Shown here: one piece after another, positions 7,899-43,635 of the stretch
Position numbering within the stretch: the first letter of the stretch is position 1
How the letters are laid out: each line of letters begins with the position of its first letter
DNA from: Actinobacteria bacterium HGW-Actinobacteria-2
GTDB taxonomy: Bacteria; Actinomycetota; Actinomycetes; Propionibacteriales; Propionibacteriaceae
Assembly (NCBI GenBank): GCA_002841335.1
Contig: PHEY01000004.1
Coordinates: 186,001 to 250,000 of the forward strand
Length of the DNA: 64,000 bases
Direction: 5' to 3'
Program-made: the position numbers and the translations under genes
The notes under the pieces: generated by a model
Told to the model about the DNA's origin: nothing
The model's input: only the letters and a program-made list of their open reading frames with translations
Databases searched by the model: none

Positions 7899-9269
7899 TC
7901 AGGCCTTCCTCGCGTACGGGTTGGTCGTCGGATCGCCGTCATCGTCCAGCATGATCGTGGGGATGGCCGGCTCGCCCTTGCTCATCTTCAACGCCGACTG
8001 CGGCAGTTCGGCGCGGGCGCGGGCATGCCGCTCGCGGGCGTCCTCCAGCGACTCGCGGGCGACCGCCTTGCCCTTGCGCATCAACTCGACCAGGAGCGGA
8101 CGGTCATTGCCATCGTTTTCCGGCGGGGCTCCGATGCCGATCACTTCGGCCTCGGCCCGGCCTCGGGCGTCCAGGCGGCGCAGGGCGAACTTGCGTCCGC
8201 CGACGCTGGACTTGTTGGCGCTCTTCTTGGCCACCGGCACCAGTTCGGCCTTCTTGCCCTCGGAATCGGCACGCGCGACCAGCTTGTAGACGAAGCCGCA
8301 GGTGGGCGCGCCCGACCCGGTCACCAACGACGTGCCCACGCCGTAGCCGTCCACCGGGGCGCTGCGCAGTGCGGCGATCTGGTACTCGTCCAGGTCGGAG
8401 GTGACGATGATCCGGGTGGAGGTGGCGCCCAGCGAGTCGAGTAGCTTGCGGACGTCGGCGGCTTGCTCAGCCAGGTCACCGGAGTCGAGCCGGATCGCGC
8501 CCAACTTGCCCTTGGTCAGCCGGACGCCGGTGCGCACTGCTTCTTCGATGTCGTAGGTGTCGACCAGCAGCGTGGTCGACTTGCCCAGCGTCTTCAGTTG
8601 CGCCTTGAACGCCTCCTCCTCACTGTCGTGCAACAAGGTGAAGGAGTGTGCGGCGGTGCCGGCGGTGGGCACGGCGTAGGTCCGTCCGGCTTCGAGGTTC
8701 GAGGTCGCGGTGAAGCCGGCGATGTACGCGGCCCGGGCGGCGGCCACGGCAGCGTGCTCGTTGGCTCGCCGCGAGCCCATTTCGATGCACGGTCGATCCT
8801 TGGCCATCGCGGTCATCCGGGAGGCGGCCGAAGCCACCGCAGAGTCGTAGTTGTAGATGCTCAGCAGCAGGGTCTCCAACATCGCGGCTTCGGCGAAGGT
8901 GCCCTCCACGATCAGCAGCGGTGAGCCAGGGAAGTAGACCTCACCCTCGGGGTAGCCCCAGACATTGCCCTTGAACTTGTAGTGGCTGAGCCACTCGGCC
9001 AGGTCGGTGTCGATGACGTTCTCTTCCAACAGGAAGTTCAGTGCCGATTCGTCGAATCGGAAGGCCTTGATCGCTTCGATCGCTCGGCCCACGCCGGCCA
9101 CGACGCCGTAGCGGCGGCCTTCGGGCAGGCGGCGGGCGAACAGCTCGAACACGCTGCGCCGCATCGCGGTCTGGGATCGGAGCGCCGCCCTGATCATGGT
9201 GAGCTCGTAATGATCGGTCAGCAGGGCAGTGCTCGGGGTGGTCCCGGCCGGCGCCATCAGGACAGTCAT
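7899..9269 (-). CDS. pncB: Nicotinate phosphoribosyltransferase
   Basis: A 456-aa NAPRTase that joins nicotinate and PRPP to form nicotinate mononucleotide, the step after PncA. Family features include the start [12 protein letters not shown], the phosphorylatable-His region ([16 protein letters not shown], residues about 213-228), VDTYD and IRLDSGDL (PRPP/product binding). TAGGCT on the minus strand (9276-9281) ends 6 bases before the ATG, suggesting a leaderless transcript for pncB-pncA. It is divergent from clpS. Confidence 0.94.
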
Positions 9270-31873: not shown

Positions 31874-33190
31874 TCAGCTGTCGGCCATGTCTCCCGACAA
31901 GTACTCGGCGTAGGCCGGCAGGTCGAGCTGACCCGAACCGGACACCCCGATCACGATCACCGGCGACTCGCCGGCCTCGGTCGCGGCCTTCGCCTGACGG
32001 ATCGCGCCGGCGATGGCGTGGTTGGACTCCGACGCCGGCACGATGCCCTCGGCGCGGGAGAACATCACGCCTGCCGCGAAGGCCTCACGCTGCTTGATCG
32101 CGATCGCGTCAATCAGACCCTCGTGGTAGCAGTGGCTGACCAGCGGTGACATTCCGTGGTAGCGCAAGCCACCGGCGTGGACCGGATCGGGTACGAAGTC
32201 CGGGCCGAGCGAGTACATCTTCAGCAGTGGCGTCAGGTGTGCGGTGTCGCCGAAGTCGTACTTGTATTCGCCCTCGGTCATCGACGGTGCAGCCTTCGGC
32301 TCACACGCGACGATCTTGGTCGCCTGACGTCCCTCCAGGTTCTCCCGGACGAACGGGAAGGCGATCCCGGCCAGGTTCGAGCCACCACCGGCGCACGCGA
32401 ACAGGTAGTCGACCTTCGGCTCCTCGAACAGCTCCAGTTGCTTGAGCACTTCCTGACCGATGATCGTCTGGTGCAGGGCCACATGGTTCAGCACCGAGCC
32501 GAGCGAGTAGCTGGCGCCGGGGTCCTTGGCCGCGGCCTCGACCGCTTCGGAGATCGCCATGCCCAGGCTACCGGTGGTGTCGGGGAACTGCTCGCGCAGC
32601 GCCCGTCCGGACTCGGTCAGCTCCGAGGGGCTGGCCACCACCGACGCGCCGAAGGTCTCCATCAGGTAGTGACGGTAGGGCTTGCCCTCGTAGGAGGAGC
32701 GCACCTGCCAGATGTCACAGGTCTGGCCGAAGATCTGAGTGGCGAACGCCAGGGCCGAACCCCACTGGCCCGCACCGGTCTCGGTGGTCAGGCGCATCCG
32801 TCCGGCGACCTTGTTGAAGTAGGCCTGGGCGACCGCAGAGTTGGTCTTGTGGCTGCCCACCGGGGAGGCGCCTTCGTACTTGTAGTAGATCTTGGCGGTC
32901 GTGCCGAGGGCCTGCTCCAGGCGACGTGCCCGGTAGAACGGGGACGGACGCCACAGCCGATAGATGTCGTGGACCTCTTGGGGGATCTCGATCCAGCGCT
33001 CGGTGCTGGCTTCCTGCTCGATCAGACCGGGCGGGAACAGCGCCTCGAGGTCTGAGGGCACCAGGGGCTGTTGGGTTCCCGGGTGCAGATGCGGCGGGGG
33101 AGGAGTCGGCAGGTCGGCGACGATGTTGTACCAGTGCGTAGGCATCTGGCTTTCGTCGAGCACCACCTTTGACTGCTTCGGATCGGACAT
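31874..33190 (-). CDS. trpB: Tryptophan synthase beta chain, TrpB2 type
   Basis: A 438-aa PLP enzyme of the TrpB2 group (longer than TrpB1 and not next to trpA). The PLP Lys is in ASPVGSHKTNSAVAQAYF; the phosphate-binding glycine loop is ACAGGGSNLAG. TrpB2 proteins condense indole or related donors with serine without a TrpA partner, or act in salvage. ATG 33190 has GAAGGAAG upstream; the frame continues far upstream without family similarity. No trp operon is nearby. The mobile-element remnant begins about 230 bases upstream of it, and I see nothing in that gap beyond a possible promoter. Confidence 0.93.
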   Translation of the reverse strand: MSDPKQSKVVLDESQMPTHWYNIVADLPTPPPPHLHPGTQQPLVPSDLEALFPPGLIEQEASTERWIEIPQEVHDIYRLWRPSPFYRARRLEQALGTTAKIYYKYEGASPVGSHKTNSAVAQAYFNKVAGRMRLTTETGAGQWGSALAFATQIFGQTCDIWQVRSSYEGKPYRHYLMETFGASVVASPSELTESGRALREQFPDTTGSLGMAISEAVEAAAKDPGASYSLGSVLNHVALHQTIIGQEVLKQLELFEEPKVDYLFACAGGGSNLAGIAFPFVRENLEGRQATKIVACEPKAAPSMTEGEYKYDFGDTAHLTPLLKMYSLGPDFVPDPVHAGGLRYHGMSPLVSHCYHEGLIDAIAIKQREAFAAGVMFSRAEGIVPASESNHAIAGAIRQAKAATEAGESPVIVIGVSGSGQLDLPAYAEYLSGDMADS

Positions 33191-33421
33191 GGCACTTCCT
33201 TCGGCTTCGAGTAGCGGGCCGCTCTTCCGACTGCGGTCCAGGCTGAACTCTAGGGGTGTCGGCACCGGTAGCGACATGGGTTCCAGCGACCGTTCTGTGG
33301 GCGGGGCTCGCAGGCGTACCAGTTGAGGGGCCGCGCCGGTGACAGCAACGACAATGTGACCTCTCAGCAGATCGTGGCGGCAGGAAATCCGAGTGCGGGT
33401 ACGCGATGAGGCACTCACCGT

Positions 33422-33715
33422 GTGGATGTCGCCGGGCGTACGACGCCGCTCGCGGCGAGGATGGTGGTGAACCACACGAAGATCCAGCGGCTGTGGCGTG
33501 AGGAGGGTCTCCGCGTCGCTCAGCGGTGGCCCCGCAAACGCAACGGGTCCTCGGCCGGCGACGCGCCGACAGCAGTCGCGCCGAAAATCGTGCGGGCGGT
33601 GGACTTCCATTTCGATACCGACGAGTAGGCGATCGGTGACTGGGAGACTGACTACAACCACCACCGCCGGCCCTTCTCGCTCGGCTACTTCCCCCAGCTG
33701 AGTACGCTCAGCATT
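33422..33715 (+). pseudogene. IS3-family transposase remnant (OrfB)
   Basis: The frame from 33422 reads VNHTKIQRLWREEGLRVAQR, then AVDFHFDTDE, the typical OrfB stretch before the first catalytic Asp. It stops at 33628. Just after, DWETDYNHHRRPFSLGYFP (another frame or register, about 33640-33700) matches the extreme C-terminus of the same transposases. The middle with the second Asp and the Glu is missing, so this is an internally deleted, inactive copy. It marks the left edge of the island. Confidence 0.75.
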
Positions 33716-33824
33716 GCACCCACCATATCGAAATCGACGACTCGCAAGAGGTCCGGGCCCAATGAAGACGCGGCTCACAGGCATGTCGATTCCGGGACAA
33801 TTTGGCCGCTTTTTCGAAATGAGG

Positions 33825-33853
33825 TTGTGTTACCACGCATCGGGCAATAGTCT
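33825..33853 (+). promoter_or_regulatory. Candidate promoter of the radical SAM island operon
   Basis: TTGTGT (33825-33830), a 17-base spacer, and TAGTCT (33848-33853) precede the MFS gene by 41 bases. AGGAG (33883-33887) lies 6 bases before its ATG, so unlike many chromosomal genes this operon has a leader and Shine-Dalgarno site. No other convincing promoter is seen until 38960. Confidence 0.6.
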
Positions 33854-33893
33854 GGCCGCACACGCTCTTCGCAAACCCCAGCAAGGAGTCCTC

Positions 33894-35096
33894 ATGAATA
33901 AGATCGCGCCCGGAGTAACGTTGCCGGCCGTGGCAGGGGGACCCCTTCGTGGAATACTCCGTCGGGTTACTGCTTACTCGGCCGTGCTGGCGCTTGCTGA
34001 CTTCATGTTCGGCGCTGTGTACGTGTCGGTTTTGTTGGCGCGCGACCTGCCCCCGGCGCAACTCGGCATCCTGTTCGGAATCAGCACCGCCTTCTCGGTG
34101 CTGATCGAGGCGCCCAGCGGCGCGGTGGCCGACAAGTACGGTCATCGGAGACTCATGAGCGCTGGCCTGCTCATATGGGCCCTCGCCTTGGCCATATTGA
34201 GCGTGGCCGCCACCTGGGCGCTGGTCCTCGTTGGGCTCTTAATGTGGACCGCGGGCATGGCGCTTCAGTCGGGCACCACGGCACCGATAGTCGTCGCCAG
34301 TGCACCCGAATCAGATCGCGTGATCCTCTTCGACGTGCTGATGCGTCGGGCGAGTGTGGCGCGTTGGGTTGGTTCCAGCCTTGGTGCGGGGGTCGTGTTC
34401 GCATTGGGAGACTGGGTGCCGGGTGGTGTGGTTATCGGGATCGCGGCTGGGGTGATCGCCGTCCTCGGATTGTTGGTGCCTCTGGTGTTCCCGTCGAGCA
34501 CGCCCCAGCCCGAACTGGACATGCAGTCGGTCTTCCGCTCGATGCTCGGCTGGAGTCGTCGGCGTGAGGTAGTGCCGCTCATCATCGCCACAATCGCATC
34601 GGGTTTGAGCGTGACTGTTATAGTTGTCACCTGGCAACCAGTGCTCTCGCCGGGGCTGGATCTCCGGCTGAATGGCCTCCTGCTAATGGCACTCACTCTG
34701 GCAGCCGCGATGGGGTCGTTGCTCAGCAAAGCCTTGCATGAGGTTGACGCCGCCGAAATGTCCCTTCTCGCATTTGCCATGATTGCGGCGGGCCTGGCGA
34801 TCAGTTCTCTGGTTGCCGGAGGGGCTCTGGTTGGCTACTTGCTGGCAGAGTTCGGCCTGGGTCTAAGCATGGTCGGCATCGGGAAGTGGCAGCATCTTGA
34901 GTTCAGTGACGAACTGCGCAATACCTTGTACTCGACCCTCGCAACGGTCGGCCTCTGCGCGGCGTTGGTGGCCAACTCCGCTCTAGGCATCCTGTGGCAG
35001 CAGGTCGGGTTGCCCGTCACCGTCCTTGTGTTTGCAGTAGCTGTCGCGGGCCTGTCCGTCGTTGTTGGCACGCTGCGGAAGCTCGCACCGTCGTGA
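33894..35096 (+). CDS. MFS transporter of the island operon
   Basis: A 400-aa MFS protein with about 12 hydrophobic segments; the motif-A-like loop after TM2 is GAVADKYGHRRLMSAGLL. The first 25 residues are soluble and Pro/Gly-rich. ATG 33894 follows AGGAG with ideal spacing; the frame is open 180 bases upstream but without a second RBS. It is the first gene of the island operon; its TGA overlaps the start of the radical SAM/SPASM gene. Export of the modified product, or self-protection, is the natural inference. Confidence 0.87.
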   Translation: MNKIAPGVTLPAVAGGPLRGILRRVTAYSAVLALADFMFGAVYVSVLLARDLPPAQLGILFGISTAFSVLIEAPSGAVADKYGHRRLMSAGLLIWALALAILSVAATWALVLVGLLMWTAGMALQSGTTAPIVVASAPESDRVILFDVLMRRASVARWVGSSLGAGVVFALGDWVPGGVVIGIAAGVIAVLGLLVPLVFPSSTPQPELDMQSVFRSMLGWSRRREVVPLIIATIASGLSVTVIVVTWQPVLSPGLDLRLNGLLLMALTLAAAMGSLLSKALHEVDAAEMSLLAFAMIAAGLAISSLVAGGALVGYLLAEFGLGLSMVGIGKWQHLEFSDELRNTLYSTLATVGLCAALVANSALGILWQQVGLPVTVLVFAVAVAGLSVVVGTLRKLAPS

Positions 35097-36418
35097 GGGG
35101 GAAAGCTCCAGGCGCGGCAAATGGCCCGTACGGGAGGGCAGTCGGTGCGCGGCAGGGCGAGACGCAGGTACTCCCAGTCCCGGATTCCGACCACCTGCAC
35201 CTCTTGCGCGCACCAGGGGCGGCGCCGATTCTTTTCGACTCGGTGTCGTTGGAAGCATTCTTGCTCGAGCCGTCGGACTTGGGGCCGGACGGAGAGTGGC
35301 CCTGTGTGCGCCTCAGGGGCGAGCGTGACGTCGTGATCGCTGCACGGCGACGTGGATTCGCGAGGAAGCCGGGACATATCAACACCTTCCGTGTTGTGTT
35401 GACGGAGAGCTGCAACTTCGCCTGCCGGTATTGCTTCGAGACCACCAGCGCGAGGCGGCCACGTTCGATGTCGAAACGCACTCTGGAGCGCACCGTTCAA
35501 GTCATTCTTGACGCGAATGCAGGCCAGGGAGTCGCGGTCCACTGGTTCGGCGGCGAACCGCTCCTGCTGTGGTCGCACATTGATTGGGCTATGGCGTCTT
35601 TCGCTGAGGCGGCCCGCCGGGGCCAGATATCCAGCGTTCACCACTCGATGACAACCAACGGCTCTCTTGTCACCCCTAGGATCGCGAGGGATCTGGCCCG
35701 CGCCAGGTGCGATGTCTTTGTGAGCGTTGACGGGCCCCGTGCCGTGAATGACCGCTCGCGGGTCGACCGCTCCGGGGGAGGAACCTTTGACGAGGCGTTG
35801 AGGGGCTTCAGGCTCCTAGCGCAGGCCGGTGTCGACGTCGGCCTGCTGGTAACGGCAGACGCAAGCTCGGTCAGCACCCTATTCGAGTCGGTGCGTGAGC
35901 TCATTGAAACGGTGGGAGTGCGCAAGGTTGGAGTGAACACTCCGCAGCCCAGCCGAAACGGTTGGAGTGTGGATGGAGCCGTGCTAGCTGAGCAGATGCA
36001 TCAGCTAGTGCGTTACTGCAATGATCAAGATGTCCGCCTATTGGGGCCGGGTCTACGCGTGCTTCGGGCGCTGAAGTACGCCAATCCACACGTTGACGAT
36101 TGTCGGAGCCCCTCGGGTGCCATGGCCGCTACGATCACACCGGAAGGGCAGCTAAGCGGCTGCATCGTGTCCTGGCAGGACGGTCGTCCCTGGAAGCTGC
36201 GAGACCTATCGTCGCGGAGCCTACTTGAACTCGAGCACATCAAGGTTACCCCCACGGTGCAGCCGGGTTGCCACGGATGCATCGCGGAGATGGTTTGTGG
36301 TGGGCCGTGCGCGCTCGAGATGGTGCTCGCTGGGGTTCATCCGGATCGCTGCGCATTCTATAGGACGTTCGTGGTCTTGTCGGTGCTGGAGTCGACCCGC
36401 GATGGAGTCCGATTATGA
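35093..36418 (+). CDS. Radical SAM/SPASM enzyme 1
   Basis: A 441-aa radical SAM protein. The [4Fe-4S]-AdoMet motif is C107-NFA-C111-RY-C114, followed by GGEP at 153-156. The C-terminus has a canonical SPASM domain for two auxiliary clusters: C337 and C357 (with G-X4-C), then C393-X2-C396-X5-C402-X3-C406, and C420. Such enzymes commonly modify ribosomal peptides (sactionine, ether or C-C crosslinks, as in PqqE, MftC). GTG 35093 overlaps the MFS stop (GTGA), and the gene overlaps the next by 4 bases. The 100-residue N-terminal region is unassigned and could bind a leader peptide. Confidence 0.88.
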   Translation: MRGKAPGAANGPYGRAVGARQGETQVLPVPDSDHLHLLRAPGAAPILFDSVSLEAFLLEPSDLGPDGEWPCVRLRGERDVVIAARRRGFARKPGHINTFRVVLTESCNFACRYCFETTSARRPRSMSKRTLERTVQVILDANAGQGVAVHWFGGEPLLLWSHIDWAMASFAEAARRGQISSVHHSMTTNGSLVTPRIARDLARARCDVFVSVDGPRAVNDRSRVDRSGGGTFDEALRGFRLLAQAGVDVGLLVTADASSVSTLFESVRELIETVGVRKVGVNTPQPSRNGWSVDGAVLAEQMHQLVRYCNDQDVRLLGPGLRVLRALKYANPHVDDCRSPSGAMAATITPEGQLSGCIVSWQDGRPWKLRDLSSRSLLELEHIKVTPTVQPGCHGCIAEMVCGGPCALEMVLAGVHPDRCAFYRTFVVLSVLESTRDGVRL

Positions 36419-37119
36419 CGCCCTCATTGTCGAGGAACTTCGTCGTTTCGGCACTCCCCCTAGAGTTCCGAGAGCGCTATGCGGATGCCACCATCGTGGT
36501 GCGCGAGACGCCGGACCTCCACCGACTCAGCCCGATCCGCCAGGCCAAGGCATCATCTTCATATGCCGAGGCTGTGCGCGCAGATATAGCTGCGGGCCGC
36601 GCGGTTGTGCTCGTTTCCGCCGGTAGCGCTGTGTGCCCGGCGAGTCCCGCCGCCATTCGCAAGCAAGCGCGATCTACCCGTGACAGCTTGGAGAATCTGT
36701 CGCCATCAGCGCCGATCATCTCAGCGCTGGCATCTTTCGAGGTCTGCGAATGGGTGCTGGAGGACGGCTCTGCCCTGGTGGAGGGGAGTCTACAGTTGCC
36801 TTACGGTGAGCTCTGGGTCCAAGGACCGAATCACTACACAGGCCCCCTCTTCGTAGCTGGTGAAGATGTTCCGCTGACCTTCCGGCGGGGACGCGTCGTC
36901 GGCACTCCCACTGTATGGCGGAGTCTGGTGGGGCGCCCCCTGGTTGAGCTCGGCTTCGGCTGTAACTCCCAGGCTGAGCGCAGGGGGCCAGGGCGGGAGA
37001 AGGCCTCTGGAATCTGGCATGTGGGGGTGGGGGCTGTGTCACGGTTGCACCTTTACCCGCCATTTGTGCACTCGGACGTTGAGCTGGACGTAAAGCGCAA
37101 CAGTGAGGAAGGACGATGA
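36415..37119 (+). CDS. Small M29-aminopeptidase-like protein
   Basis: A 234-aa protein that I match by eye to the C-terminal half of M29 (AmpS/AmpT-type) aminopeptidases, usually about 400 aa. The five metal-ligand positions appear kept: E132 (LPYGELW), E178 (PLVELGFG), H202 (GIWHVGVG), and H219 and D221 (VHSDVELD). The family Tyr seven residues after the His is Ser here (or shifted to Y214). The N-terminal half (1-110) is short and unlike the family. Start and stop overlap the neighbours by 4 bases. It may trim a peptide or bind metal only; the assignment is by pattern. Confidence 0.55.
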   Translation: MTPSLSRNFVVSALPLEFRERYADATIVVRETPDLHRLSPIRQAKASSSYAEAVRADIAAGRAVVLVSAGSAVCPASPAAIRKQARSTRDSLENLSPSAPIISALASFEVCEWVLEDGSALVEGSLQLPYGELWVQGPNHYTGPLFVAGEDVPLTFRRGRVVGTPTVWRSLVGRPLVELGFGCNSQAERRGPGREKASGIWHVGVGAVSRLHLYPPFVHSDVELDVKRNSEEGR

Positions 37120-38063
37120 GGGTACCCCTCGCCTACTTGGAGCTCACCAGAGCGTGCAACGAGCGCTGCTGTTATTGCTACAACGATTCGGGTCGACCGC
37201 TGGCAGGCGAACTGGGCACTGACGCCATCGGTGAGGTAGTTGAAGGCTTTGTTGCTCAAGGCGGACAGCAACTGATGATTACCGGGGGAGAGTGTCTTCT
37301 TCATCCCGGCATTGTTGACGTCATGGAGCGCGCTCGCGCCACTCCGCAGGTTCGTTGGCTCGCTATGAGTACGAATGGTCTGCTTCTCGACTCCCCTCGC
37401 GGGCGAGCGGTCCTGGAGCTGTGTGACGAGGTGGACATCAGCCTGGACGGGTTTGCTGACATTCATGACCCACTGCGCGGTGTTCGCAGTTGGGACAAGA
37501 CCCTTGCCGCTTTGAGGCTCGCGGGCGCGAGCGAGGCGAGGCTGCATGTCAATGCTTGTCTGACAGCCCCTCTGTGGAGGGACCTCGAGCGCTACCTGGG
37601 CCTTCTCGAGGAAGCGGGGGTGGCAAGTGTGAAGATCGCATTGATCGGCGGCGTGGGGCGTCAACGAACGCCAAAGAGCCTTTTCGATGGGCTTCCTGCT
37701 CGCACTGTCATCGCAGAGAGTCTGGATGAAGTCGCCGAGCGTTGGCATGGCCGACTCGATGTCAGTCAGTCGAGTAGCCGCAAGGTCTCACCGGTGACTC
37801 CCGCCACCGACGGCGTGGTGATCGACCCACTTGGTCGCTTGTTCCCGCAGCTAGGTTGTCAGGGTCTCCAGTGGCAACTGGGGTGGGCTTCCCCCCGATG
37901 GGAGTTGTGGGACGAGAGTCTCGATAGATATCTAGATCGCATGCGAGTAGTCGAGAGAATTGGCTCGAGCCGTGTCGCTGCGGGGGAATACGTTGAGTGG
38001 TGGGCACTTATTCGCGACGAACTCGAGTCGGGGCCCGAGGAAGGTGTCGCCCGTGTTGACTAG
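37116..38063 (+). CDS. Radical SAM enzyme 2
   Basis: A 315-aa radical SAM protein. The cluster motif is at the very N-terminus, C14-NER-C18-CY-C21, with ITGGECLLHPG as the GGE motif. The C-terminal third has a SPASM-like turn (DPLGRLFPQLGC) but only one Cys, so an auxiliary cluster is unlikely. It is shorter than enzyme 1 and distinct from it. It starts in an ATGA overlap with the M29-like gene and overlaps enzyme 3. Substrate unknown. Confidence 0.85.
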   Translation: MRVPLAYLELTRACNERCCYCYNDSGRPLAGELGTDAIGEVVEGFVAQGGQQLMITGGECLLHPGIVDVMERARATPQVRWLAMSTNGLLLDSPRGRAVLELCDEVDISLDGFADIHDPLRGVRSWDKTLAALRLAGASEARLHVNACLTAPLWRDLERYLGLLEEAGVASVKIALIGGVGRQRTPKSLFDGLPARTVIAESLDEVAERWHGRLDVSQSSSRKVSPVTPATDGVVIDPLGRLFPQLGCQGLQWQLGWASPRWELWDESLDRYLDRMRVVERIGSSRVAAGEYVEWWALIRDELESGPEEGVARVD

Positions 38064-38961
38064 TTTGGTAGTGATGGTTGGCTATCGGTGCAATCTCAGA
38101 TGCTCTTACTGCTTCAATGAGACACATGAGGATTCCGTCGGATACCAACAGAAACATGCGTCGGGGGGGCGCGACGTCGCATGGGGTCGCGAGGTGATAG
38201 CGCGTGTCGTTGAGGAGGCTGCTGCCACCGGATACCGACGCCTAGTTTTGACTGGGGGTGAGCCGCTGCTGTACCCAGAGACTTTGGACTGGATCGAGCT
38301 CGGTGCCTCCGCGGGTTTGCGGGTAAACCTCATCACGAACCTTACTGCGGTGGACACTCATGTCGTCCGCGCGCTCTCGAAGGCCGGGGCGCGCGCGTCC
38401 CTGCGGGTTAGTGTTGGTGGGTATGACCGCAGCACCCATCAACGCTATCGGCAAGGGTGGGACGCAATGCGTCGCGGTTTGAGTCTCGTGAAGCCTGTAG
38501 GGAATGAGCTGCATTTCTCATTAGTACTCACGCGCTCCATGCTCGCTCACCTCACGCGCTATGAGGCTTTCGCTTTGGCCGAAGGTGCTCGGCCACACAT
38601 CGCTGCCCTGTCCCCTGGGCGACCGGGCGTCGTGCCGGCCACGGAGCTCCTCGCCGAGGCATCTCGGGCGGAGTGGGAGGAAGCGGAGAAGTCCGTTACG
38701 GACGCCCTATTGCGGAGGGAGCTATCGCTGCTAAAGGGTATGTATCTCGCGAGTCTACGCCCCCGAACCTGCTCAATGCGCACTAAGGCGCACGTCCTAC
38801 TTCCGAATGGGGATCTTGTTGGCTGCTTCCATCGGTTGGACCTTGATTATGGGAACGTATTGGCGGGTAATCTTGGCTGCCTACTGAAGGGGGTGAATAT
38901 AGATCGCGCCCTCCCTGCGGACTGCATCGGAGAGCACTGCTTCACGAATCATTATGATTAG
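38053..38961 (+). CDS. Radical SAM enzyme 3 with auxiliary-cluster Cys
   Basis: A 302-aa radical SAM protein. GTG 38053 is preferred over GTG 38044 since AGGAAGG (38038-38044) lies 8 bases upstream. The AdoMet motif is C13-NLR-C17-SY-C20, then LTGGEPLLYP. The C-terminus carries C240-X17-C258 (with G-X4-C), C276 and C291-X4-C296, a twitch/SPASM-like set that could hold one auxiliary cluster. It overlaps enzyme 2 by 11 bases. The base composition drops toward its 3' end, with codons such as ATA and TTA that are rare in the chromosome. Confidence 0.85.
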   Translation: MLTSLVVMVGYRCNLRCSYCFNETHEDSVGYQQKHASGGRDVAWGREVIARVVEEAAATGYRRLVLTGGEPLLYPETLDWIELGASAGLRVNLITNLTAVDTHVVRALSKAGARASLRVSVGGYDRSTHQRYRQGWDAMRRGLSLVKPVGNELHFSLVLTRSMLAHLTRYEAFALAEGARPHIAALSPGRPGVVPATELLAEASRAEWEEAEKSVTDALLRRELSLLKGMYLASLRPRTCSMRTKAHVLLPNGDLVGCFHRLDLDYGNVLAGNLGCLLKGVNIDRALPADCIGEHCFTNHYD

Positions 38962-38999
38962 AAATCGCTAGACAATCGAAAGAGGAAGGCATTTTAGTC

Positions 39000-39449
39000 A
39001 TGAAGAAGCTTCATACTACTTTCAATCAATCCATCGAGGATTCTGATTTATGTGCGCGGAGTGGCCTCATGTCCCCTCGCCTGTTCGTCGCGGTCTATGT
39101 GAGCCAACTCGGCGCCATGGCCAACTACTACAAGCGGGTCTTTGGTGAGGATTCTGTGCAGTTCGAGGGGGATGAGGTGCTCTCACTTCGCATGGATGAG
39201 GAGATTGAGTTGTTCATCCAGGTGGTCGCTGAGGGTTCGGTCTTCGCTGAGCTCATAGGTAAGCAGTCGATCGGCGTGGGGCTCTCACCCGAACGCTATG
39301 CGCTTCTTGTGAGTAGCCTCCCCGACGAGATCCCGGTCGCGCTTGAAACCTGGACCGGCGGGCCGGCCGTGGATGAGGGGTTCATGCTCGTCGACCCTGA
39401 GGGCAACCATCTGATGCTGCTCCCGACCCAGCAAGCGGCCATGGTCTGA
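39000..39449 (+). CDS. VOC (glyoxalase/bleomycin-resistance fold) protein with AT-rich N-terminal extension
   Basis: A 149-aa protein. From residue 24 it shows the VOC fold: SPRLFVAVYVSQLGAMANYY (first beta-alpha unit), then ELFIQVV and a final FMLVDPEGNHLMLLP. The first 23 residues (MKKLHTTFNQSIEDSDLCAR at the start) come from strikingly AT-rich DNA with rare codons. AGAGGAAGG precedes ATG 39000; GGAG also precedes ATG 39069, so a shorter form is possible. VOC proteins bind metal and small molecules, and often confer resistance. The role here is unknown. Confidence 0.7.
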   Translation: MKKLHTTFNQSIEDSDLCARSGLMSPRLFVAVYVSQLGAMANYYKRVFGEDSVQFEGDEVLSLRMDEEIELFIQVVAEGSVFAELIGKQSIGVGLSPERYALLVSSLPDEIPVALETWTGGPAVDEGFMLVDPEGNHLMLLPTQQAAMV

Positions 39450-40226
39450 ATGACCGGGACGTTGCGAGAGGTGGGGCTCGGCGCGGGCTGGGTCCCACCT
39501 CCCTTGCCCGGTGGGGATGGCATGGTCTCCTTAGGGCTCTGGCGTAAGTTGGGCTCGGGGGTGTACGACCCGACTCCTGCGGGTGAGTTGCTCAGGTCAG
39601 CATGGCTGGGTGCGCTTGAGTTGCTGCTCCCGGGCTTCCTTGGTCAACCCGAGATGGTGCTTAGGCCAGCGGTACGCCCATCTCCGCGTCGGCTGCTGAG
39701 TTTCACGGTCCTGCCGCTAGTTGGTGATGCGTCCGACGAGGCCCTTGCTGCAATGCAGCTGGGGAGCCTGCTCAGAGCGCTCGCCGCTCTGGGTTGCGGA
39801 CTGTCTTTCGGACGCACAAGATCTGGGTCGCTGATGCTAAGCGGTCGGGATGCCGGGCTCCTCGATGTTTCGATTGCCACTCACGACCGGGATGCGGCCA
39901 AGGTGTTCGTAGGAGCTGAGGCTCTCGAGGTCGCGCTGGCCCGATCTCCCGCTCTCCCCCGCATATTTGGACGAACAGTCGGCATTCAACCTTTGGCCGT
40001 CGCGAGCCCGATCGCAACCCGACTTGCAGAGTCGCTTCGGCTCAGGGGTCTTGACGCACTGGTTCTCGAGCGGCCGCCAATCATTCCGTATCCAGTCTTT
40101 GTGAAGATCGTCCGAGGCGACAAGTATCTGGTCTCTAGTGGTTTCGGGCCGGATAGAAAGGTGCGGTGGTGCAGAACGAGCTCAGATGTGGTGGCTGTGG
40201 CCGTCGCGTCGACTTGGGAGCCGTAG
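39450..40226 (+). CDS. Truncated prolyl-tRNA-synthetase-like protein
   Basis: A 258-aa protein whose first 75 residues follow the start of bacterial ProRS: TLREV near the N-terminus, GLWRKLGSGVYDPTPAG (motif-1 region, compare GLIRKLASGIYTYLPLG), then GQPEMVLRPAVRPS (compare GAQEVLMPALQP). The next part may correspond to the stretch after motif 2, but the motif 2 and motif 3 arginines for ATP binding are not visible, and full ProRS is about 570 aa. Activation of proline is therefore doubtful. It starts directly after the VOC stop and overlaps the metallopeptidase gene by 61 bases. Confidence 0.5.
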   Translation: MTGTLREVGLGAGWVPPPLPGGDGMVSLGLWRKLGSGVYDPTPAGELLRSAWLGALELLLPGFLGQPEMVLRPAVRPSPRRLLSFTVLPLVGDASDEALAAMQLGSLLRALAALGCGLSFGRTRSGSLMLSGRDAGLLDVSIATHDRDAAKVFVGAEALEVALARSPALPRIFGRTVGIQPLAVASPIATRLAESLRLRGLDALVLERPPIIPYPVFVKIVRGDKYLVSSGFGPDRKVRWCRTSSDVVAVAVASTWEP

Positions 40227-40900
40227 CGGGCCGGGTGGCCCGGTATGCGAGCATGCTGAGACTCGCCACGACTCTCAACGTGTTGGCGCCGACGGTTGAG
40301 GTCCTGCCAGGACTCGGCGTAGACGGCATCTACTGCTCGGGGGTTATCTACGTCTCACCGGAGCGTTGGCGCTGCTATAAAGCCGATGTGGTGCTGGCTC
40401 ACGAAACCGTGCATTCCCTTATCGACCCCGAATTCGACCGCCGGCGCTGGGTTCGCGAGTCGTTAGCTGAGGGCATCGCGCTCGCCCTCATGGCCACTAG
40501 CAGCCGCTTCAGCGCCCTTCACTTGCGTGCCTCTTTGGGCCGTAGCCGTCAGGCCGCGCCGACGCCACACCCCGATGATTGGTATGGAACGAACGCGTTG
40601 TCCGTGTTCGGGTCTATCAGCCCCATCCAGACGGGGAGTCTGGACCTAGGCCTCACGCGTGAACGACTGGTGCGAGGCGCCATCAGCCCGCATTCATTTG
40701 AGGGGTCTGGAGGCGAGTTGGAGGCGACTGTGGCAGCACTTGTTGATCGCGCGGCACCGTCCGCTGCTGTTTGCGACCTAATGTGGCGTCTCTCTGAGCC
40801 TGGACTGCCCAAGGCGGGGGGCCGTTCCTTGCAGCCGCGCGACGCCGACTCCTGGGCTTCGGTGGCTTCCGATGTGGAGCGCTTTGAGGCAGACAAGTGA
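40166..40900 (+). CDS. HExxH metallopeptidase with N-terminal zinc knuckle
   Basis: A 244-aa protein with H79-ETV-H83 and a Glu 19 residues later (E102 in ESLAEGIA), the gluzincin spacing HExxH-X18-E. The N-terminus has LRCGGCGRRVDLG, a small CxxC zinc-ribbon-like turn. GTG 40166 (or 40169) includes this turn, at the price of a 61-base overlap; ATG 40253 would remove both. No signal peptide or membrane helix is seen, so it acts in the cytoplasm, perhaps on a precursor. It is the last gene of the operon; the IS481 element follows after 118 bases. Confidence 0.65.
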   Translation: MVQNELRCGGCGRRVDLGAVAGRVARYASMLRLATTLNVLAPTVEVLPGLGVDGIYCSGVIYVSPERWRCYKADVVLAHETVHSLIDPEFDRRRWVRESLAEGIALALMATSSRFSALHLRASLGRSRQAAPTPHPDDWYGTNALSVFGSISPIQTGSLDLGLTRERLVRGAISPHSFEGSGGELEATVAALVDRAAPSAAVCDLMWRLSEPGLPKAGGRSLQPRDADSWASVASDVERFEADK

Positions 40901-41018
40901 TCATCGGTGAACCTCTCCAACGCCGATCGTTTGCCCGGCCGCCGTTTTGGTGCGCCAAGATGGGGGCGGCCACAGGGACTCATGCATGAGTCGGTGACAC
41001 TCGGTCTGTGGATCTAGA

Positions 41019-42103
41019 TGTACTCGGCCATCAGGTTGGTGACACTCGGCTGATCGGGGGTTTGCCTCCGAGTGCGGTGTGTCGGCGTTCAGTGTTGTAG
41101 GCGTTGAGCCATGGGGCAAGGGCTTCCGTGCGGGCGGTGTTGGTGGTGAAGGGCTCGGCGTAGGCCCATTCGATCTGCAGGGTGCGGTTGAACCGCTCGA
41201 CTTTGCCGTTCTGCCAAGGGCTGTGGGGCCGGATGAATCTGTGGGTGATGCCGCGATCGGTCAACAGGTCGCGGACGTCTCGGGATCGCCGGTAGGAGAA
41301 GTGGTTGTCCGAGATCAGGCGCTCCACGACGATCCCGATGCTGGCGAAGTGGTCCAGTGCCCGGGCCAAGAAGGCGGCGGTGGTCGGGCCCTTCTCGTCG
41401 GGCAGGATCTCGGAGTAGGCGTAGCGGGAGTGGTCGTCGACCAGTGAGTGGACGTAGTCGTAGCCGACCTTGGCTTTCTTGCGGGCAGAGGTGTCGCCAG
41501 CTTCGCGGCCGTGAAGCTTCCAGCCACCTCCCTCAGGGATCCGGCCCAGCTTCTTCACATCGGTGTGCACCAGTGAGCCGGGATGGTCGTGTTCGTAGCG
41601 GATACCGGTTACCTTCGACGCTCGGATTATCGCACCCGTGATCGGGTCCAGCTCGTGCAGGTAGGGCAGCTGGTGGCGTCGCAGGACTCGTGACACGGTC
41701 CGGGCCGCTAGGCCAAGCTCAGGCCCAAGCCAGTCCTGGCCGCGGCGATACTCCACCCGGGCGGCAACGATTCGGGCCTCAACCTCAGCGCTGGTGCGCT
41801 GCGGGCTGCGGCGGGGCCGCGACGAGCGATCGGTCAAGCCGGCCTCGCCCTCGGCCCGCCACCGCGCGACCCAGCGGTGCGCGCATTGCCGCGACACCCC
41901 CTGCGCTTTCGCGGCGTGCGCCACCGGCCAACCCTGCTCCAGCACACGCGTCACGAGTAGTCGCCTGCCGAACACCGTCAAATGAGCCCTACATTGGGAC
42001 ACGGGAGAACCTACTTGAGATGTGGACCTTCGCAAGTCACACCCCAACGGGGGTTCTCCCTTTCGTCAACCAGCCCGTGTCACCCACGTCCCGGCCGAGT
42101 ACA
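41019..42103 (-). mobile_element. IS481-family insertion sequence
   Basis: A complete 1085-bp element. The ends TGTACTCGGCC (41019-41029) and GGCCGAGTACA (42093-42103) are perfect inverted repeats; GGTGACAC at 41038 and its complement at 42077 keep the symmetry, giving 27-bp imperfect ends. TCTAGA flanks both sides (41013-41018, 42104-42109), a 6-bp target duplication fitting the NCTAGN preference known for IS481. One transposase gene fills it. It bounds the radical SAM island on the right. Confidence 0.88.
41031..42002 (-). CDS. IS481-family transposase
   Basis: A 323-aa DDE transposase. N-terminal HTH segments (GWPVAHAAKAQGVSRQCAHR; RTVSRVLRRHQLP) precede the catalytic core: Asp in LVHTDVKKLGRI, Asp in VERLISDNHFSYRRS, and Glu in SPWQNGKVERFNRT, then the C-terminal WLNAYNTERRHTALGG. 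It appears intact. GTG 42002 is the likely start (SQCRAHLTV follows). The stop lies just inside the left terminal repeat. Confidence 0.92.
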   Translation of the reverse strand: MSQCRAHLTVFGRRLLVTRVLEQGWPVAHAAKAQGVSRQCAHRWVARWRAEGEAGLTDRSSRPRRSPQRTSAEVEARIVAARVEYRRGQDWLGPELGLAARTVSRVLRRHQLPYLHELDPITGAIIRASKVTGIRYEHDHPGSLVHTDVKKLGRIPEGGGWKLHGREAGDTSARKKAKVGYDYVHSLVDDHSRYAYSEILPDEKGPTTAAFLARALDHFASIGIVVERLISDNHFSYRRSRDVRDLLTDRGITHRFIRPHSPWQNGKVERFNRTLQIEWAYAEPFTTNTARTEALAPWLNAYNTERRHTALGGKPPISRVSPT

Positions 42104-42150
42104 TCTAGAGGCTCGAGCCGGGCGTCAGCGCCTCCAGCTCGCCTGCTTGA

Positions 42151-43635
42151 TCAGTGCCGCGCGTTCGCCCAGATCTCGGCCATCCAGGTTTCGATGGTGT
42201 CGGGGTCTTTGGGGAGGTGGTGGGAGAGGACTTCGCAGCCGGTTTCGGTGATCACGATGTCGTCCTCGATGCGGACGCCGATGCCGCGCAACTGCTCGGG
42301 CACCAGTAGGTCGGTGGCTTTGAAGTAGATGCCGGGTTCGACGGTGATGACCATGCCGGGGGCGAGGATGCCGTCGCGGTAGTTCTCGGTGCGGGCTTGG
42401 GCGCAGTCGTGGACGTCCAGGCCGAGGTGGTGGGACGTGCCGTGCACCATCCAGCGACGGTGGTGGCCGCCGGTGGCCGGGTTGAGCGACTCGGCCGCGC
42501 TGACCGGCAGCAGGCCCCATTCCTCCAAGTAACGCGCCACCACGGCGATCGCGGCGGCGTGCACGTCGGAGAACTTCGCGCCCGGCTTGGCGGCATCGAT
42601 GCCGGCCTGCTGGGCCTCCATCACGGCCAGATAGACCTGGCGCTGGGCGGCCGAGAAGGTGCCCGACACCGGCAGGGTGCGGGTGATGTCGGCGGTGTAG
42701 AGCGACTCGACCTCGACGCCGGCGTCCATCAGCAGCAGATCGCCGGGACGGATGTCGCCGTTGTTGCGGGTCCAGTGCAGGGTGTTCGCGTGATCGCCTG
42801 AGGCGGCGATGGTGTCGTAGCCGACCGCGTTGCCGGCGTGGCGGGCGTACAGCCCGAAGACGCCTTCGACCCAGCGCTCGCCACGGCCGCGACGGATCGC
42901 TTCAGGCAGGTCGGCCACCACGGCTTCGAAGCCTGCTGCGGTGTCGGCGCACGCCTTGCGCAACTCGTCCAGCTCGAAAGCGTCCTTGATCAGGCGGGCC
43001 TCCGACAGCGCGACCGCGAACACCTCATCGGCCTCGGCGGCAGCGCCGGCGTCCACGCCGTCGCGCAGCCGCAGCGCGTCGATGATCAAGGTGAGATCGG
43101 CGTCGGCCTCGCGCACCAGGCGCACCGGAGTGGTGGCCAGATCGGCCGCGGCGGCAGCCTGGAACTCTGCGATCGGTGCGCAGCGCAGGCCGGTGAGCGC
43201 GCTCATCTCCTCCAGCGACTCCCGCGTTCCCACCCACATCTCGCCGTAGCGGGCGTCGGCGTAGAACTCCGAGTCGGTGCGCGGGGCGCGCGGCTTGAAG
43301 TACAGCGTGGCGGTGGCGTCCGGCTCGATCATCAACACCGCATCGGGCTCACGGTCGCTGCCCAGGCCGGTCAGCCAGACGAATGCCGTGTGCGGACGGT
43401 AGGGGAAGTCGGTGTCGTTGGCGCGCACCTTGAGGCCGCCGGCCGGGATGATCAGCCGCTCGCCCGGGTAGGCCGCCGCGATCCGAGCTCGACGTTCCGC
43501 AGCCGGAACCGTGGCCGGCAACGCGGCCGGGAGCTCGGCGGGGTAGGGCGCCCACGCCTGCGGAATGAACTCGGCAAATGCCTGGGAGAAGGGGGTCTGC
43601 CGGTTCGGAAGCTTCGGCTGCGCGTCACTGCTCAT
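42151..43635 (-). CDS. pepP: Xaa-Pro aminopeptidase
   Basis: A 494-aa M24B metallopeptidase that removes N-terminal residues before proline. Metal ligands: Asp in LLMDAGVEVESLYTADITR (two Asp), His in GTSHHLGLDVHDC, Glu in TVEPGIYF and Glu in VRIEDDIVIT. The N-terminal creatinase-like domain starts at about residue 50. TAGCAT (minus strand, 43643-43648) leaves 7 bases to the ATG. It belongs to the chromosomal backbone to the right of the IS element. Confidence 0.93.
   Translation of the reverse strand: MSSDAQPKLPNRQTPFSQAFAEFIPQAWAPYPAELPAALPATVPAAERRARIAAAYPGERLIIPAGGLKVRANDTDFPYRPHTAFVWLTGLGSDREPDAVLMIEPDATATLYFKPRAPRTDSEFYADARYGEMWVGTRESLEEMSALTGLRCAPIAEFQAAAAADLATTPVRLVREADADLTLIIDALRLRDGVDAGAAAEADEVFAVALSEARLIKDAFELDELRKACADTAAGFEAVVADLPEAIRRGRGERWVEGVFGLYARHAGNAVGYDTIAASGDHANTLHWTRNNGDIRPGDLLLMDAGVEVESLYTADITRTLPVSGTFSAAQRQVYLAVMEAQQAGIDAAKPGAKFSDVHAAAIAVVARYLEEWGLLPVSAAESLNPATGGHHRRWMVHGTSHHLGLDVHDCAQARTENYRDGILAPGMVITVEPGIYFKATDLLVPEQLRGIGVRIEDDIVITETGCEVLSHHLPKDPDTIETWMAEIWANARH

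Follow-up and report, generated by a model that had tools for sequence, protein, structure and literature searches.

What do eight tightly packed genes, three of them for radical SAM enzymes, produce when they stand between the traces of two insertion sequences (IS) in a bacterial chromosome? The locus lies in a stretch of 64,000 nucleotides (from here: the window) of Actinobacteria bacterium HGW-Actinobacteria-2, a member of the Propionibacteriaceae (assembly GCA_002841335.1, contig PHEY01000004.1, positions 186,001 to 250,000). A first-pass annotation, made from the letters alone, had proposed a cassette that modifies, cleaves and exports a peptide or amino-acid product, carried on a mobile island and matching no described pathway. 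Literature searches aimed at the whole gene set or at some of its genes yielded no paper describing it. We report that this radical SAM operon is conserved and mobile, and that its product is most likely a modified peptide. Our more specific reading, to which we assign a probability of about 0.4, is a horizontally acquired operon resembling those for ribosomally synthesized and post-translationally modified peptides (RiPPs), whose product is a small modified peptide for export and whose substrate is the 26-residue N-terminal tail of its VOC-fold protein. The cassette proposal is upheld as to the gene set, found again in Cutibacterium porci and more loosely in a Streptomyces plasmid, and as to the insertion, seen against the genus; modification, cleavage and export are steps that we infer.

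The operon, its radical SAM enzymes and its relatives

The eight genes lie on the plus strand within 33894-40900 (Table 1). Successive genes overlap by 4, 4, 4, 8 and 61 bases, the 61 being shared by the last two; rSAM3 and the VOC gene are 38 bases apart, and the VOC gene abuts the gene at 39450-40226. The first-pass annotation had described eight consecutive, mostly overlapping genes and suggested asking whether their families occur together in another genus. C. porci (NZ_VUMG01000001.1), likewise of the Propionibacteriaceae, carries all eight genes in unchanged order, and its final two genes again have a long overlap (58 bases).

All three radical SAM proteins match PF04055, and the positions of their cysteines agree with the description given of them as one SPASM enzyme, one without the auxiliary Cys set and one twitch/SPASM-like. 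In rSAM1, the CxxxCxxC motif is joined by seven further Cys, all kept in the C. porci and Streptomyces homologues. Only two further Cys are kept in rSAM2, and the four C-terminal Cys of rSAM3 are common to the window, C. porci and the Streptomyces relative. The NCBIfam models nearest to rSAM1 are those of PapB (6e-32), the cyclophane maturase AmcB (1.5e-25) and, third, the quinohemoprotein amine dehydrogenase maturase (TIGR03906, 7e-24). Assignment of rSAM1-3 to a named RiPP or cofactor class was rejected: among the best 25 of the 80, 69 and 69 NCBIfam models that they matched, none reached its cut-off, and the heme, PQQ and mycofactocin models match radical SAM proteins as generic background. 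A defence function was also rejected, PADLOC giving only pVip (viperin) matches that are short, weak and confined to the radical SAM core (23-54 bits) and the NCBIfam viperin scores 34 and 46 bits against a cut-off of 180. By sequence, the window would hold peptide-modifying enzymes beside a candidate precursor, namely three radical SAM proteins of which the SPASM enzyme is nearest to peptide maturase models.

Searching 196 relatives with rSAM2 gave hits in 156 of them (E 1e-5), but full-length ones only in its own genome and in C. porci (46%, 261 bits; the next best 71 bits), and a search of the genome contigs with two exact rSAM2 peptide patterns returned one locus, again C. porci. The M29-like protein occurs in 2 of 198 family genomes, its own included, and at E 0.05 in 11 of 394 class genomes, all except its own at 17.7 bits or less; rSAM1 was found at E 1e-40 in one of 394 class genomes, its own. 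For rSAM3, 111 of 396 phylum genomes gave matches at E 1e-8, of which the best other one (53 bits) is read as background. No full eight-gene set beyond these two was found in the other family and class genomes searched with the M29-like protein and rSAM1. Plasmid searches gave no match for the M29-like protein, the VOC protein of either species, rSAM3 or the island DNA, and nine records for rSAM2, none with 80% cover. One viral scan gave no match and another a single match at 22%, while the phage search returned 36 records, none with 80% cover. An Actinomyces oris plasmid showed an ABC-transporter context, and the shared gene set was not seen in its annotation.

A tblastn search of plasmids with rSAM1 gave 67 records, of which only that of Streptomyces sp. 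NBC_01727 exceeded 80% cover (34%, 6e-54). Its cluster on plasmid NZ_CP109164.1 (8470-22599 of our locus L036) lies between two transposase genes of the IS6 family. An open reading frame (ORF) of 66 codons with three Cys stands directly ahead of the rSAM1 homologue; the further genes encode an M29-like protein, an HExxH protein, a second radical SAM enzyme, an MFS protein, a relative of class II aminoacyl-tRNA synthetases, an FAD oxidoreductase and a P450. The cluster's second radical SAM enzyme shows 28% identity to window rSAM2 and 23% to rSAM3, with which it shares the four C-terminal Cys. The cluster has in common with the window the rSAM1 clade, the M29-like protein, the HExxH motif, a second radical SAM enzyme and the MFS protein. 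It differs in that its ORF stands alone, no VOC gene is annotated, there are two radical SAM enzymes instead of three, and an FAD oxidoreductase and a P450 are added. When plasmids were searched with the Streptomyces M29-like and synthetase-related proteins, only these themselves were matched; the 66-aa ORF found itself and, among the matches listed, 22 chance-like ones at E of at least 5.

In a tree of 23 rSAM1 sequences, the proteins from the window, C. porci (partial) and NBC_01727 form one clade (support 98/95), and 19 Streptomyces proteins belonging to a different type of locus fall outside it. The branches are long, and a twentieth protein of that type (L076) lies far away. In this second locus type (L057-L076), a related SPASM enzyme is accompanied by a protein of about 118 aa that matches no Pfam family (HLIYADVVDSKSKAGVWMGER...) and by two radical SAM proteins. 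One more protein matches Cupin_8 weakly, below cut-off, and a gene of the aspartyl-tRNA-synthetase type runs on the other strand. By tblastn, the ~118-aa protein was found in 19 of the 20 loci, the radical SAM proteins in 20 and 19, the Cupin_8-like protein in 16 and the synthetase in 15. The SPASM enzyme occurs at E 1e-30 in 21 of 295 Streptomyces genomes.

The N-terminal tail of the VOC-fold protein

The VOC protein begins with MKKLHTTFNQSIEDSDLCARSGLMSP in the window and with MKNCDIIFNDSINESDLCARSGLHSP in C. porci. The two tails share the pattern FNxSIxxSDLCARSGLxSP, in which S-D-L-C-A-R-S-G-L occurs in both species, with the order Asp-x-Cys. Of the 26 tail residues, 17 are identical in the two species; behind the tail, 53 of 124 aligned columns are. 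Stretches of 18 residues with at least 14 identities were found at eight separate places over all eight protein pairs (C. porci rSAM1 being covered only from position 8648 of locus L011 on); the tail holds one of them, and the others include radical SAM motifs and the metal region of the M29-like protein. The Streptomyces 66-aa ORF begins MKRRTITLESRGDICSRSTCLGVGC, and a profile alignment pairs DLCARS of the tail with DICSRS of the ORF, a match which we regard as no more than suggestive. A good Shine-Dalgarno-like stretch stands ahead of the VOC gene in the window and in C. porci, and another ahead of the Streptomyces ORF.

The VOC label given by the first-pass annotation fared differently by sequence and by fold. 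Sequence libraries gave no support, and a profile search against solved structures was chance-like, with one putative glyoxalase at E 0.17. An AlphaFold model from a two-row alignment, of low confidence (mean pLDDT 43), is predicted to have the order of strands and helices of a VOC protein (paired beta-alpha-beta-beta-beta). Of the 58 structures that Foldseek matched to this model at E 0.001, the best 50 are of VOC type as far as can be judged by name (E 1.3e-5 to 7.7e-4). They include bleomycin-binding proteins, ZbmA, TnmS and EhpR, and many are resistance proteins; TflA, ChaP, TioX, UcmS2, 4pav and 5uhj are likewise entries which we take to be VOC proteins. The window protein resembles the self-resistance proteins (bleomycin-binding protein, ZbmA, TnmS, EhpR) in its fold according to Foldseek, and differs from them by its conserved 26-residue tail and the lack of a Pfam match.

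These neighbours also suit another explanation, namely that the operon modifies a peptide which is encoded elsewhere or was overlooked, and that the VOC protein, which has a conserved N-terminal arm, does no more than confer self-resistance by binding. The weak link between tail and Streptomyces ORF fits it as well. Against it, conservation is higher in the tail than in the fold, and a separate hidden precursor was sought and rejected: when ORFs of at least 18 aa outside the genes were compared between the window and C. porci (matches listed to E 0.001), the eight best matches were seven minus/minus and one minus/plus, with no plus/plus pair. We consider this explanation unlikely.

If the tail is the substrate, the VOC protein would be made with the 26 residues at its N-terminus, and rSAM1 would join tail Cys18 to a nearby carbon, with Asp16 as first candidate, in a thioether or related link. 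The thioether is proposed because the nearest curated models include that of the thioether-forming PapB; a cyclophane-type link may be made instead. Further changes would be added by rSAM2 and rSAM3. The tail would then be cut off the VOC domain by the HExxH protein and trimmed at its N-terminus by the M29-like protein, and the MFS protein would export the product. The VOC domain, with its drug-binding self-resistance fold, could hold the maturing peptide and protect the cell, and the protein at 39450-40226 may serve to present either the substrate or an amino acid. That a single chain serves as substrate, carrier and self-resistance domain in this way, with the peptide core encoded as the VOC tail, modified by three radical SAM enzymes and then freed by the HExxH protein, is doubtful when taken as a whole. 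If the tail is the substrate, the peptide product would have no separate precursor gene, and searches for short precursor ORFs would miss such cases. Even otherwise, the locus is a defined mobile eight-gene system with four proteins outside Pfam, and the full set in a second genus together with the looser Streptomyces relative could be used for reconstitution.

Several observations speak against a modified VOC tail. The score of rSAM1 with the PapB model NF047865 is 111 bits, compared with a cut-off of 340, and the Asp-x-Cys order of the tail is the reverse of the Cys-Xn-Asp (Cys-X3-Asp) order in the PapB abstract (PMC9413430). The score of the tail with the Streptomyces ORF was reached by 57 of 3000 shuffles and by 7 members of a control set of 1248 ORFs (50-85 aa long, taken from 21 Streptomyces loci); the 66-aa ORF ranked first among the 240 short ORFs of its locus by just 27.0 versus 26.5, hhalign gave the same pairing a probability of 2%, and blastp-short found no match at E 5. 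A good Shine-Dalgarno-like stretch also precedes window rSAM2 and the C. porci HExxH gene, so this feature is not specific to the VOC gene. The Streptomyces HExxH protein shares the motif with the window protein, a comparison that stops short of homology. The full set occurs in only two of the genomes searched, and its conservation thus rests on one pair. Finally, the C. porci rSAM1 frame contains an in-frame TAG (L011 8537-8539) ahead of CxxxCxxC, and this copy may therefore be broken or mis-sequenced. The stop, like the IS remnant and IS element at the operon edges, would be expected of a decaying passenger of insertion sequences that no longer functions; such an origin is hardly credible for a locus in which all eight window frames are open and the motifs are kept at 31-50% identity.

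Table 1. Positions of the features discussed (window coordinates), with identity to the C. porci counterpart and the basis of each assignment
Feature	Position	Strand	Identity to C. porci	Basis
Inserted island	33288..42166			DNA homology limits in four relatives; flanked by TrpB-like gene and PepP gene
IS3-family transposase remnant, stop-interrupted	33419..33745	+		HTH_21 E 4.6e-4, rve_3 E 0.08
MFS exporter	33894..35096	+	40%	PF07690 1e-16; 31%, 3e-40 to Streptomyces plasmid protein
rSAM1, radical SAM/SPASM, peptide-maturase-like	35093..36418	+	50% (after the stop)	PF04055 3.3e-20; NCBIfam PapB 6e-32; clade 98/95
M29-like metalloprotein, short	36415..37119	+	39%	hhalign to Streptomyces homologue; profile versus M29 proteins
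rSAM2, radical SAM without auxiliary Cys set	37116..38063	+	45%	PF04055 8e-19
rSAM3, radical SAM	38056..38961	+	42%	PF04055 1e-17; four C-terminal Cys
VOC-fold protein with conserved N-terminal tail	39000..39449	+	47%	Foldseek list of VOC type
Candidate embedded substrate, VOC codons 1-26	39000..39077	+		Conservation versus C. porci; D-[LI]-C-[AS]-R-S common to Streptomyces ORF
Protein, possibly degenerate class II aminoacyl-tRNA synthetase relative	39450..40226	+	31%	Weak alignment to prolyl-tRNA synthetase
HExxH metallopeptidase-like protein	40166..40900	+	35%	HExxH, Glu 18-19 residues on
IS481 element	41018..42104	-		Transposase 41031-42047; NF033577 6e-94; inverted repeats; CTAG at either side

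Known systems and the remaining proteins

QhpD-type enzymes make links between Cys and carboxylate residues. With TIGR03906 as the third-best NCBIfam match of rSAM1, and with the tail belonging to a folded protein, one may ask whether a cross-link or cofactor stays in the VOC protein as the end product, as in the maturation of quinohemoprotein amine dehydrogenase. An exporter and two peptidase-like proteins would then be superfluous, and the annotated Streptomyces cluster has a small ORF and no VOC gene; we take this outcome to be highly unlikely.

PapB is reported to join Cys and Asp or Glu as thioethers in Cys-Xn-Asp with n of 0-6 (PMC9413430). The PapB/ranthipeptide maturases (NF047865) resemble the window system in that rSAM1 is a radical SAM/SPASM protein with PapB as its best model and that Cys and Asp are close in the candidate substrate. 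They differ by the low rSAM1 score given above, the presence here of three radical SAM enzymes and the fusion of the proposed substrate to a VOC domain. Another comparison is Cluster 115, described in section 4 of its source as having three to five radical SAM enzymes along with a peptidase and a hydrolase; its precursor has an Asp-Cys motif and no fewer than three Cys (PMC9062424). Several radical SAM enzymes and a peptidase are common to both, and the Streptomyces ORF likewise has three Cys. In that section no VOC, M29, HExxH or synthetase-like gene is named, and the motif is Asp-Cys there versus Asp-x-Cys here (PMC9062424). This sets the two apart by description, not by sequences, and kinship is possible.

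Pfam gave matches above cut-off for five of the nine proteins scanned (MFS, three Radical_SAM, the IS481 transposase) and none for the proteins at 36415, 39000, 39450 and 40166 or their C. porci partners. For the first of these, the M29-like label was supported as a remote kinship by profile alignment of three rows, not by PF02073 (Peptidase M29), which matched neither the window protein at E 1, nor the C. porci protein at E 10, nor the Streptomyces protein at E 1. The pair from window and C. porci aligned with the Streptomyces homologue at probability 95 and E 1.6e-8 (hhalign). When aligned to two M29 rows, the three-row family scored 41.3; with a single row the score was 36.0, and 200 column shuffles against that row reached at most 24.7; without the Streptomyces row, the pair scored 26.2 versus a shuffle maximum of 23.2, and the M29 kinship therefore rests partly on that row. 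The three proteins keep the pattern E..EK..G..H.G.G..H.D, whose residues presumably are the M29 metal ligands. In the HExxH proteins of window, C. porci and Streptomyces, the motif that had been noted in the first-pass annotation is present together with a downstream Glu, read as a gluzincin pattern, and no family matched above cut-off. The window protein has two Cys near its start.

The protein at 39450-40226 had been called a truncated relative of prolyl-tRNA synthetase (ProRS), a label that could not be confirmed. Against 17 ProRS rows, hhalign gave a score of 22.8 near the ProRS N-terminus and 19.0 for a second collinear piece, compared with shuffles of which 3 of 200 scored at least 22 and up to 25.3. 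Searches of Pfam and of PDB sequences gave no match, and the model (pLDDT 33) led to no useful fold match. Kinship with ProRS is weakly suggested. This resemblance, together with the synthetase relative of the Streptomyces cluster (PF00152, 5.7e-20, nearest to AspRS and EpmA-type models), would be in line with a small-molecule product made from a free or aminoacyl-activated amino acid, the class II synthetase relative activating it and the radical SAM enzymes rewiring it. The 39450 protein shows no resemblance to the Streptomyces synthetase relative, however, the NCBIfam models that rSAM1 matches best belong to maturases of peptides or proteins, two peptidase-like proteins are present and a three-Cys ORF opens the Streptomyces operon. 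A small-molecule product appears quite unlikely to us.

The island and its insertion site

The DNA of four relatives aligns with the window up to 33184-33287 and again from 42166-42167 on. In the genus, PepP was found in 26 of 30 genomes and TrpB in 27, the own genome counted (threshold E 1e-100). Both matches lie on one contig in 21 of the 29 other genomes, at a spacing of 6-2165 bp, compared with 8957 bp in the own genome (33196-42154). Among the remaining eight, the genes are on different contigs in three, and one or both were not matched in five. An insert of the size of the island was present in none of the 21 comparable genomes. We take it as a supported reading that the operon was horizontally acquired on a mobile island inserted into an otherwise short intergenic site. 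The GC content at third codon positions is 0.64-0.74 across the eight operon genes versus 0.84-0.91 across seven neighbours, in agreement with the lower GC content noted for the region. The gap between TrpB and PepP measures 760-2165 bp in 9 of the 21 genomes and 6-256 bp in 12; it may be a hot spot of insertion.

An IS3 remnant at one end of the operon and an intact IS481 element at the other had been noted; family scans agree with both, and the IS481 element also has inverted repeats. The two open pieces of the IS3 remnant were scanned separately, and their HTH_21 and rve_3 matches are both below cut-off. The IS481 transposase scores 315 bits with NF033577 (cut-off 224) and is also named by Pfam above cut-off. 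Since CTAG is palindromic, the flanking CTAG of the element is indistinguishable from the repeat itself. The assembly contains only this one full-length IS481 copy. About 100 bases of one of its ends have 85% matches at three other places of the same assembly (contigs C3, C4 and C9 of G000), one of them at a contig edge.

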